From NCBI GenBank assembly GCA_013002205.1, contig JABDKN010000299.1:1-55147 (forward strand): a stretch of 55,147 nucleotides of DNA, read 5' to 3'. Source of the stretch: Granulosicoccus sp. (GTDB lineage: Bacteria; Pseudomonadota; Gammaproteobacteria; Granulosicoccales; Granulosicoccaceae). The notes under the pieces are model-generated. The model searched no databases, was not told the origin of the DNA, and saw nothing but the letters and a program-made list of their open reading frames with translations. The translations under genes and the position numbers were made by a program. Positions 45,648 through 49,458 of the stretch are shown here, piece after piece. Positions within the stretch are counted from its first letter, which is position 1; every line of letters begins with the position of its first letter.

Positions 45648-46771
45648 GTCTCAACACCAGCAGCATCCCGTTGCCCGGGTGGATCGAAATCGGGGTCATA
45701 CCTGTACTTAACATCCTGATGGCGCTGTTTTTCGCAGGACTGATCATGCTGGCGATCGGGGTGAATCCGCTGCAGGCAGTTGGCATCATGATCAATGGCG
45801 CCTTCGGCTACGATGAGGCAGTTGGTTATACCCTGTATTACACCACTAACTTCATCTTTACCGGCCTGGCGGTAGCGGTTGCCTTCCACGCCAGTCTGTT
45901 CAACATCGGTGGGGAGGGTCAGGCCTATATCGGAGGACTGGGAGTTGGCCTGGTGTTCCTGCTACTGGATGACTTTCTTCCAGCCGTACTGCTGATACCG
46001 ATAGGAATCATGGCCGCCGGACTCTTCGGTGCAGCCTGGGCATTCATTCCGGCGTGGCTGCAGGCCTACCGTGGCAGCCATATCGTCATTACCACCATCA
46101 TGTTCAATTTCATTGCAGCTGCAATCATGGTGTACCTGCTGGTCAATGTGCTGATCAAACCGGGCCAGATGTCACCCGAGTCACGCCTGTTCGACGAGTC
46201 GGCGTGGCTGCCGTTCATGCATGAATTCCTGGGCTGGTTCGGCGTCGAGATTACCCGGACTCCACTCAATCTTTCATTGTTCTTTGCGCTGACGTGTTGC
46301 CTGTTTGTCTGGATCTATATCTGGCGCACACGATGGGGCTACGAACTGCGTACCGCTGGTCACAGTGAAGACGCTGCGAGGTATGCCGGTATCAGGCCAC
46401 GGACCGTGATTGTCAGTGCCATGTGCCTGTCGGGTGCGCTGGCAGGTTTCGTCGCTGTCAATGAGATCATGGGTGTGCATCATCGACTGCTGCTCAACTT
46501 CACCGCCGGCTATGGCTTCACCGGCATCGCCGTTTCACTGATGGGGCGCAATCACCCGGTGGGCATCATCATGGCCAGCCTGCTGTTCGGCGTGCTGTAC
46601 CAGGGCGGCGCAGAGCTGGCCTTCGAGATTCCAAAAATCACGCGGGAGATGGTCGTGGCCATCCAGGGCCTCATCATCCTGTTTTCCGGCGCCCTGGCAC
46701 TGATGCTGCGGCCCTGGGTAGTCAGGCTGTACCTGAGATTCAAATCCGTCGAAGACGTGGTGCCCGCCTGA
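45644..46771 (+). CDS. ABC importer permease, BMP/nucleoside type (NupP-like)
   Basis: This 375-residue inner-membrane permease of the branched BPD_transp_2 family has about 9-10 hydrophobic helices. The conserved FNIGGEGQAYIGGLG segment lies at about residues 85-99, and SGALAGFVAVNEIMGVH lies near 265-281. It is the larger of two paired permeases forming the channel. It overlaps the ATPase gene by 4 bp and the next permease gene by 1 bp (TGATG), so all are translationally coupled. Confidence 0.93.
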   Translation: MSLNTSSIPLPGWIEIGVIPVLNILMALFFAGLIMLAIGVNPLQAVGIMINGAFGYDEAVGYTLYYTTNFIFTGLAVAVAFHASLFNIGGEGQAYIGGLGVGLVFLLLDDFLPAVLLIPIGIMAAGLFGAAWAFIPAWLQAYRGSHIVITTIMFNFIAAAIMVYLLVNVLIKPGQMSPESRLFDESAWLPFMHEFLGWFGVEITRTPLNLSLFFALTCCLFVWIYIWRTRWGYELRTAGHSEDAARYAGIRPRTVIVSAMCLSGALAGFVAVNEIMGVHHRLLLNFTAGYGFTGIAVSLMGRNHPVGIIMASLLFGVLYQGGAELAFEIPKITREMVVAIQGLIILFSGALALMLRPWVVRLYLRFKSVEDVVPA

Positions 46772-47742
46772 TGGATGCCTTTTCCGGTTTCTTTGCGATA
46801 CTCGATGCCACGCTGCGAGTGTCCACTCCGCTGATTCTGGCTGCCATGGCGGGCCTGTTTTCCGAACGCTCCGGCATCGTGGATATCAGTCTGGAAGGCA
46901 AGATGCTGGCCTCGGCATTTGCGGCCGCAGCCGTTGCGGCAGTCACCGGCAGCGCCTGGCTGGCGCTGGCCATCGGCATTCTGGTGGGTGTTGCCCTGGC
47001 ATTGGTACATGGTTTTGCCTGCATCACCCATCGTGGTAACCAGGTCGTCAGCGGCCTGGCCATCAACATACTGGCCTCCGGGCTGACGGTCGTACTGGGG
47101 ATAGCCTGGTTCTCCCAGGGTGGGCAGACACCATCACTGGGCAGCGATGCGCGGTTCATGCCGCTGAGTCTGCCACTGACAGACGCAGCACGTGAGATCC
47201 CGGTCATCGGTCAGTTCTACGGCGATGTCATCAGCGGGCATAACCTGTTGGTCTATGTCTCGTGGCTGGTGGTTTTCGGCACATGGTGGGTGGTCTACCG
47301 GACCCGATTCGGATTACGCTTGCGTGCGGTGGGCGAAAACCCGCTGGCTGTCGACACCGCCGGTCTGTCCGTGAGTGGCCTGCGTTATTCGGCGGTTGCC
47401 ATCTGCGGTGCCCTGTCCGGTATTGCCGGCACCTACCTGTCCACAGCCCAGAACGCCGCCTTTGTCCGCGAGATGACGGCGGGGCAGGGTTATATCGCCC
47501 TTGCCGCCCTGATCTTCGGCAAATGGCGCCCTCTGCCTGCCATGTCCGCCTGTCTGATGTTCGGTTTTCTCGATGCCGTTGCAATACGTTTGCAGGGTGT
47601 CGTGCTGCCCGTGATCGGCGAAGTGCCCGTCCAGGCCATCCAGGCGTTGCCCTACGTGCTTACCGTGGTCCTGCTGGCAGGCTTCATTGGCAGAGCCACC
47701 GCCCCCAAAGCCGTAGGCACCCCTTTCCTCAAAGAGCGCTAG
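46771..47742 (+). CDS. ABC importer permease, BMP/nucleoside type (NupQ-like)
   Basis: This 323-residue second permease has about 8-9 helices. GLFSERSGIVDISLEGKMLASAFAAAAV near residues 28-55 is the conserved family segment, and LSGIAGTYLSTAQNAAFVREMTAGQGYIALAALIFGKW near 213-250 is the loop that contacts the ATPase. It closes the importer operon. Its stop codon lies inside the first of three GCGCTAGCG repeats at the left edge of the inverted-repeat-bounded segment. Confidence 0.93.
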   Translation: MDAFSGFFAILDATLRVSTPLILAAMAGLFSERSGIVDISLEGKMLASAFAAAAVAAVTGSAWLALAIGILVGVALALVHGFACITHRGNQVVSGLAINILASGLTVVLGIAWFSQGGQTPSLGSDARFMPLSLPLTDAAREIPVIGQFYGDVISGHNLLVYVSWLVVFGTWWVVYRTRFGLRLRAVGENPLAVDTAGLSVSGLRYSAVAICGALSGIAGTYLSTAQNAAFVREMTAGQGYIALAALIFGKWRPLPAMSACLMFGFLDAVAIRLQGVVLPVIGEVPVQAIQALPYVLTVVLLAGFIGRATAPKAVGTPFLKER

Positions 47743-47760
47743 CGCTAGCGGGCGCTAGCG
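47736..47760. repeat. Three palindromic GCGCTAGCG units
   Basis: GCGCTAGCG occurs at 47736-47744, 47742-47750 (overlapping the first by three bases) and 47752-47760. The core CGCTAGCG is self-complementary. The first copy contains the TAG stop of the permease gene. The array directly abuts the left inverted repeat of the segment at 47759-48072, so it may be part of that element's end or a target-site feature. Confidence 0.8.
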
Positions 47761-48072
47761 GGTCGGACCATCATAAGCTACTGTTTCCTTGTTAGATAAC
47801 CAGGAAATTAGCGACCAAATGACGCTTAAACCGCTGGAAATATCCGGTAAATGGCCCCTTTAATCGTCGCTTGTCGATTGCATGTCGGCACTTAGGCCAT
47901 TGATCATCGAGGACACTTGGAATCAACTCAAGCCTTCGAATCCCTGATTCAACGGCAAGACGTGTGCTAATCGAGGCTTTTTTCGGACATAAAGGACCGT
48001 TTAATCTTTGAGAAACCCTGGAAAAAGCTGTATCTCTCAAAGGAATCAATAACTAATGGAGGTCCGACCCCG
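47759..48072. mobile_element. MITE-like 314-bp segment bounded by imperfect inverted repeats
   Basis: GTCGGACC at 47762-47769 reappears inverted as GGTCCGAC at 48061-48068. Extending inward, 47762-47788 and the reverse complement of 48042-48068 match at 21 of 27 positions, with a C+G3/C+G4 run outside each. The interior is markedly more AT-rich than its neighbours: by my count 168 of 300 bases in 47761-48060 are A or T, about 44% GC. An 85-codon minus-strand frame (47792-48049) spans most of it but matches no family I know. This looks like a small non-autonomous transposable element or degenerate palindromic element, inserted between the importer operon and argG. No target-site duplication is evident. 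Confidence 0.6.
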
Positions 48073-48087
48073 TGCGATGTTTGTTAG

Positions 48088-49458
<1,371 letters not shown>

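Follow-up and report, generated by a model that had tools for sequence, protein, structure and literature searches.

A probable gene-less doublet of Y1 transposase end modules upstream of argG in Granulosicoccus

Insertion sequences of the IS200/IS605 group are not known to duplicate their target, and their ends are unlike each other and not inverted, whereas the ends described here are inverted. Y1 transposase genes flanked by TIRs instead of REPs are described in those portions of Di Nocera et al. (2013, PMC3733652) that treat TIRtrons and TIRYT; the TIRYT repeats are dispersed as singles, dimers and clusters and carry the motif GGGGWSAS, and self-complementary tracts are mentioned in these portions for some TIRs only. 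The passages of Quentin et al. (2018, PMC6006769) on TnpAREP subclass 2.1, which takes in 20 of 26 TIRYT examples, give a median protein length of 238, define class 2 by the signature Y---NP and report no REP-like sequences near subclass 2.1. REPINs, in the parts of Bertels and Rainey (2011, PMC3116915) that introduce them, are inverted doublets whose movement is presumed to be due to a RAYT acting in trans; singlets and tandem clusters occur as well. Within the portions of these papers drawn on here, the nearest published kind to the repeats at our locus is the TIRtron/TIRYT repeat.

The window, that is, the whole stretch of DNA analyzed, comprises 55,147 nucleotides from a Granulosicoccus genome. 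Between the stop codon of an ABC-transporter permease gene (BPD_transp_2; 46771–47742, plus strand, TAG at 47740–47742) and argG, encoding argininosuccinate synthase (48127–49458, plus strand, ATG at 48127), we located an element of 311 bp (47760–48070, no strand) consisting of two inverted ends of ~107 nt and a 97-nt middle. A sequence-only reading had drawn the borders at 47759–48072; the element stands, while its exact limits lie 1 and 2 nt further in. The 27-bp inverted ends with 21 matching positions described there were recovered (21/27 over the outer 27 nt), a repeat search of the window extending the arms to 31 nt (47760–47790 and 48040–48070, 81% complementary), and the AT-richer interior of about 44% GC was measured as 45.1% for 47787–48043, in comparison with 61.8% for the permease gene and 55.0% for argG. 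A second 21/27 inverted match was found within coding sequence at 2531 of the window, so a match of this quality at a span of 250–360 bp is not rare by itself; the inverted-end observation is nevertheless real because the ends recur elsewhere. The left end unit (47760–47866, plus strand) contains a terminal motif at 47760–47786 and a hairpin region with a degenerate hairpin at 47825–47864 (plus strand; arms 47825–47841 and 47848–47864), of which 7 of 17 pairs in the scored range are Watson–Crick. The right end unit (47964–48070, minus strand) is its inverted counterpart, with the terminal motif at 48044–48070 and a hairpin region (minus strand; arms 47989–48005 and 47966–47982) retaining 9 of 17 pairs at the axis; both window hairpins are thus decayed. 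In the middle segment (47867–47963, no strand) we found no conserved sequence and saw no gene. No Rfam family reached its gathering score in the window, and the plasmid collection gave no match to it. Folded as DNA, the whole 311 nt gave a z of –2.1 with the ends pairing with each other, a result that is not decisive.

Each end of this kind has two parts within ~107 nt: a terminal motif of 27 nt, reading GGGTCGGACC-NNNN-TAA-NNNN-TTGA followed by two further bases, and a hairpin centered 85.5 nt from the first G. Among those listed of the 163 ends from the genus, the center of the strongest local hairpin recurred. In an alignment-free test, complementary pairs were counted around each possible axis. 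For the 163 genus ends, the peak of pairing lay at 85.5 nt, counted from the terminal G (0.458 vs. 0.255, sd 0.040); with near-copies removed (158 of the 163 ends), the Watson–Crick fraction at this axis was 0.464 against 0.252 (sd 0.038) at other axes, and shuffling gave 0.250 with a maximum of 0.272 in 100. The same axis was found outside the genus, where non-redundant ends of transposase genes scored 0.568 (43 upstream) and 0.569 (47 downstream), with shuffled maxima of 0.302 and 0.294, respectively. By group, the fraction at axis 85.5 reached 0.739 in the left ends of the seven argG copies and 0.437 in their right ends. Of the genus ends next to the transposase, the 13 upstream gave 0.588 and the 13 downstream showed no peak at this axis. 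When the best axis between 83.5 and 85.5 was taken, 40 of the 163 genus ends had at least 11 of 17 pairs, the shuffled rate being 0.004. Across 241 ends, mean covariation on the axis diagonal stood out (z 1.41 vs. 0.02 for other diagonals, with sd 0.25 and maximum 0.66). Taken singly, the pairs covaried modestly beyond column make-up, with 3 of the top 25 on the diagonal where 0.2 were expected. The consensus arms of the 241 ends read CTTAaA...cc.TTTT and aAAAa.ggc..TTTAagg.

A profile was built from 90 outside-genus transposase ends, obtained from 59 upstream and 67 downstream ends (including 10 genus-level loci) by removing the genus-level loci, nested ends and near-copies; for the axis test above, the 59 and 67 were reduced to 43 and 47. 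Scored against this profile, the window ends took the top two ranks among 110,082 positions (right 38.8, left 35.8), the next position, which lies inside the element, scoring –18.7. The hairpin-region scores exceeded those of the ends' own mononucleotide shuffles (p 1.5e-4 and 5e-5) and peaked at offset 0. Twelve of the 163 genus ends, nested or more than 75% alike, were dropped, and 140 of 151 genus ends surpassed the 95th percentile of their own shuffles. With positions 28–107 alone, the right end ranked first and the left end third, behind another AT-rich place inside the element.

The sequence-only reading took the segment for a MITE-like element dependent on a transposase elsewhere, and the gene-less structure and the existence of a transposase with related ends are borne out, the enzyme being of the Y1/HUH rather than the DDE kind. 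A wildcard search with the terminal 18 nt found 20 places in the own genome with at most two mismatches, six of them with zero or one. A reversed-pattern control was as frequent (10 and 10 vs. 14 and 6, not split by mismatch number), and many of the two-mismatch places may therefore be due to chance. On contig C76, two of these places lie 1.1 kb from each other and bracket a transposase of 249 amino acids; the left end at C76 is two changes away from GGGTCGGACC. The protein matches Pfam Y1_Tnp (3.6e-12, 46.9 bits against a cut-off of 23) and TnpArep of PDB entry 4er8 (E 0.008), and reaches 70.8 bits with NCBIfam REP_Tyr_transpos (NF047646), below the curated cut-off of 80. It is a Y1 (HUH, IS200/REP-type, RAYT-like) transposase and not a DDE enzyme.

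For the wider survey, we derived an end model, R1, from the 26 ends found at 13 transposase loci of the genus. Ends bracket the transposase in 13 of the 17 genus genomes having a match of at least 53% identity and occur in none of the 10 lacking one, four of which have matches of 36–40% only (Fisher p 1.5e-4); this co-occurrence is partly built in because R1 derives from transposase flanks. In the remaining four (G008, G011, G019 and G026), the transposase is present and the end model found no ends. An in-frame stop interrupts 3 of the 13 bracketed matches (G001, G006 and G015), the own copy having none. R1 matched in 15 of 57 genomes, 13 of 27 within the genus and 2 of 30 others; the 13 are those with the bracketed transposase and contain 3–21 matches each. 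When eight outside-genus genomes were searched with the genus-made R1, four gave no match. We also studied 80 transposase loci (49–84% identity, 10 of them genus-level) and found the terminal motif on both sides in 53, upstream only in 6, downstream only in 14 and on neither side in 7. The HuH motif NHIH/NHVH was present in all 80 proteins and WE in 78; the tyrosine motif was YIDLNM in 63, another Y...NM in 12 and Y...NI in 1, with NP in none and the pattern not found in 4. The YIDLNM branch includes records titled Gamma- and Deltaproteobacteria and others and would lie close to the subclass without a reported recognition structure. YIDLNM-type transposases, often with GGGTCGGACC ends, were also seen in records titled Deltaproteobacteria, Thioalkalivibrio and various MAGs (L184–L254), and the Desulfocicer vacuolatum genome that contains L184 carries a 234-bp doublet (L292).

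Further ends of this kind do occur elsewhere in the genome and in relatives, as the sequence-only reading had expected. R1 found nine ends in the own genome, or 11 on seven contigs when two weaker right ends are counted; these 11 share at most 47% identity over positions 28–107, and no recent movement is thus shown. To describe their arrangement, 80 stretches were picked from the R1 matches listed, a sample and not a census, with 120 ends after merging of registers. Adjacent pairs closer than 700 bp were convergent in 22 cases, tandem in 15 and divergent in none, and the remaining ends had no neighbor above threshold within 700 bp. The convergent doublets measured 214–331 bp in 19 of the 22 cases, 214 corresponding to two 107-nt ends back to back. 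Of 125 end positions (including five register doubles), 87 had less than 10% of their length covered by ORFs of at least 120 amino acids; among 400 stretches drawn at random from these loci, the number was 92.

Set against the described systems, the ends share with TIRtrons and TIRYT repeats, as characterized in the portions cited above, the flanking of a Y1 transposase gene by the same inverted repeats (13 of 17 genus genomes) and the dispersal as singles, dimers and clusters. The motif GGGGWSAS given there resembles our (G)GGGTCGGA/(G)GGGTCAGA, although the common form (G)GGGTCGGA has G where GGGGWSAS has A; GGGTCAGG and GGGTCAGACC forms occur as well. The difference from the repeats in that account is the two-part module of ~107 nt with a hairpin at a fixed distance. 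TnpAREP subclass 2.1, in the passages cited, agrees in the NHIH/NHVH and WE motifs and approximately in length (median 238, here 249), whereas the class 2 signature Y---NP gives way here to YIDLNM in 63 of 80 proteins and a conserved hairpin is present. With the REPINs of the source parts named above, the element shares the design of an inverted doublet of the end module of a RAYT-like gene and the mostly intergenic location; in contrast, the ends are of ~107 nt and not a short REP of 20–40 nt, and matches number 3–21 per genome. The GT[AG]G foot of REP hairpins had no counterpart in the 241-end consensus, in which no tetranucleotide just before position 66 is conserved. The close transposase is usually a single gene per genome with conserved neighboring sequence. 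IS200/IS605 elements, in the portions of PMC8266576 concerned, have the Y1 chemistry and subterminal hairpins in common with ours, whereas here the hairpin lies far inside, on an axis at 85.5 nt. We found no description of the fixed-distance hairpin geometry, or of such ends in Granulosicoccus, among the open-licence PMC articles listed by our searches or in the passages cited, and an earlier description may exist.

At argG, seven genomes contain the element (G000, G018, G012, G023, G024, G006 and G015) and seven have an empty site (G001, G008, G019, G020, G005, G016 and G014); the order permease–argG was read in all except G015, whose contig begins 8 nt before the element. The filled genomes and the empty G001 form one clade (support 97/94), outside which the site is empty and within which the ArgG and ArgG-plus-permease trees did not fix the position of G001 as inside or basal to the filled genomes. 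All 7 argG right ends have T at position 16, which is shared by none of the 156 other ends of the genus and by 2 of the 90 from outside it; the simplest reading of this common state is a single old insertion, probably inherited by the seven genomes rather than recently arrived. The flanks read ...CGCTAAC/GCGGGGGGATG... in the empty G001 and ...CGCTAAC[element]GGTGGGGATG... in the filled G015. The empty sites considered by the sequence-only reading thus exist, but the target duplication it mentioned with them is not visible between filled and empty flanks at argG, the one site compared. The interiors cannot be aligned between species, their identities of 0.36–0.51 matching the 0.35–0.52 of 20 shuffled pairs. 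The seven left ends nevertheless keep 79.0% standard pairs in the hairpin, a level reached in 0 of 500 shuffles, and 10 of the 17 pairs have changed on both sides, compared with 3 when the partner is slid by one column. These paired changes could reflect vertical maintenance or rewriting by other copies. With seven genomes sharing the insertion, the argG copy allows the question of selection on the structure of an old element to be asked.

The element was earlier thought to sit where the argG promoter should be. It does lie upstream of argG, but a conserved extended –10-like motif (TGTTAGACT; 48082–48090, plus strand) is found just outside the right end, and the promoter need not have been removed. 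Within the 110 bp that precede the argG start, the pattern TGNTA[AG][AG]CT is present in all 7 filled genomes, in 5 of the 7 empty ones and in 3 of 10 others, counts made without a chance control; as it is present in filled and empty genomes, the likely promoter core predates the insertion. We infer that the motif is the argG promoter and that the terminal palindrome of the element would occupy the –35 place. A scan of 47600–48300 found no sigma-70 two-hexamer promoter.

Several explanations other than a transposase-linked doublet were weighed. A chance inverted repeat in an AT-rich intergenic region might be suggested by the other 21/27 pair in the window; with both ends at least 54 bits above the next window position on an independent profile and further ends elsewhere in the genome and relatives, we give this virtually no credence. 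A classic MITE of a DDE insertion sequence, with short TIRs cut as double-stranded DNA and a target duplication, would fit the size and the inverted ends, but among the loci examined it is a Y1 enzyme that lies between such ends, the filled and empty flanks lack a duplication and the ends contain a conserved subterminal hairpin, all of which make it very improbable.

A host-serving relic, in which the ends are kept for the argG or permease transcript as a terminator, RNA structure or protein site and not for the transposase, deserves more weight, and we consider it unlikely rather than remote. It would account for the left hairpin pairs being kept in seven genomes while the interiors are no more alike than shuffled sequences, and for the right end lying 56–57 bp from the argG start in all seven filled genomes. 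The form of the hairpin is, however, explained by the transposase, as the same hairpin occurs at the same distance around transposase genes outside the genus; moreover, pairing is weak in the window copy itself and G001 lacks the element. In our view, the segment is probably a non-autonomous doublet formed by the end module that belongs to a Y1 (HUH, RAYT-like) transposase element.

For a doublet of this kind, the full element would be the transposase between two such ends, and the argG copy would retain the two ends, with no gene and 97 nt of unrelated DNA between them. The C76 transposase may recognize the hairpin in single-stranded DNA and cut next to the GGTCNGACC terminus, and doublets may be moved or copied in trans without target duplication, as proposed for REPINs. 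A single entry at argG, between the permease stop codon and the putative extended –10, would have taken place in the ancestor of the clade, and inheritance since then would have left the ends recognizable and the interior unalignable between species. More tentatively, and at somewhat less than even likelihood, we propose that a widespread Y1 branch of the YIDLNM type uses a two-part end, the GGTCNGACC terminus and a hairpin exactly 85.5 nt inside, and that the argG hairpin has been kept by paired changes while the surrounding element DNA was randomized, so that selection would act on old copies, whether these serve as live substrates or as host elements. The fixed geometry at both ends of transposase genes, in gene-less doublets and in distant bacteria would offer a concrete substrate for TIR-associated RAYT-like transposases.

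The three units reported next to the left end are there, as three overlapping GCGCTAGCG words (47736–47760, no strand) starting at 47736, 47742 and 47752, the first spanning the permease stop codon TAG; they resemble short tandem copies of the stop-codon region. G006 and G024 have related CGCTAAC duplications at this junction. Short tandem duplications at the left junction (GCGCTAGC, CGCTAAC) were seen in the window at 47736–47760 and upstream of argG in L060 and L062, that of L060 taking in the terminal 10 nt of the element.

As we surveyed the ends, we identified a complete metH gene (C180, L096:704–4754; also L137, L156, L160 and L166) that in five genomes lies between two convergent ends. 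In G007, the downstream side alone is readable and bears an end, and in G001 the gene is split over two contigs with an end on each outer side. A bracket of two ends could in principle move the gene, but metH was rejected as cargo since the same neighbors occur without ends in G008, G019 and G026, and the ends are in our view independent insertions next to a resident gene. Tandem end motifs spaced by 113–114 nt were seen in L105, L142, L143, L153, L159 and L170, the second copy reading GGTC[CT]GACCC[CT]GGTAAGTG or near; the arrangement may be a minimal form with a single hairpin, or else a product of replication. In L114, an end is followed by GGTCGGACC-ATGAAG...CTTCAT-GGTCCGACC palindromes with a AGCCAAGGCT core.
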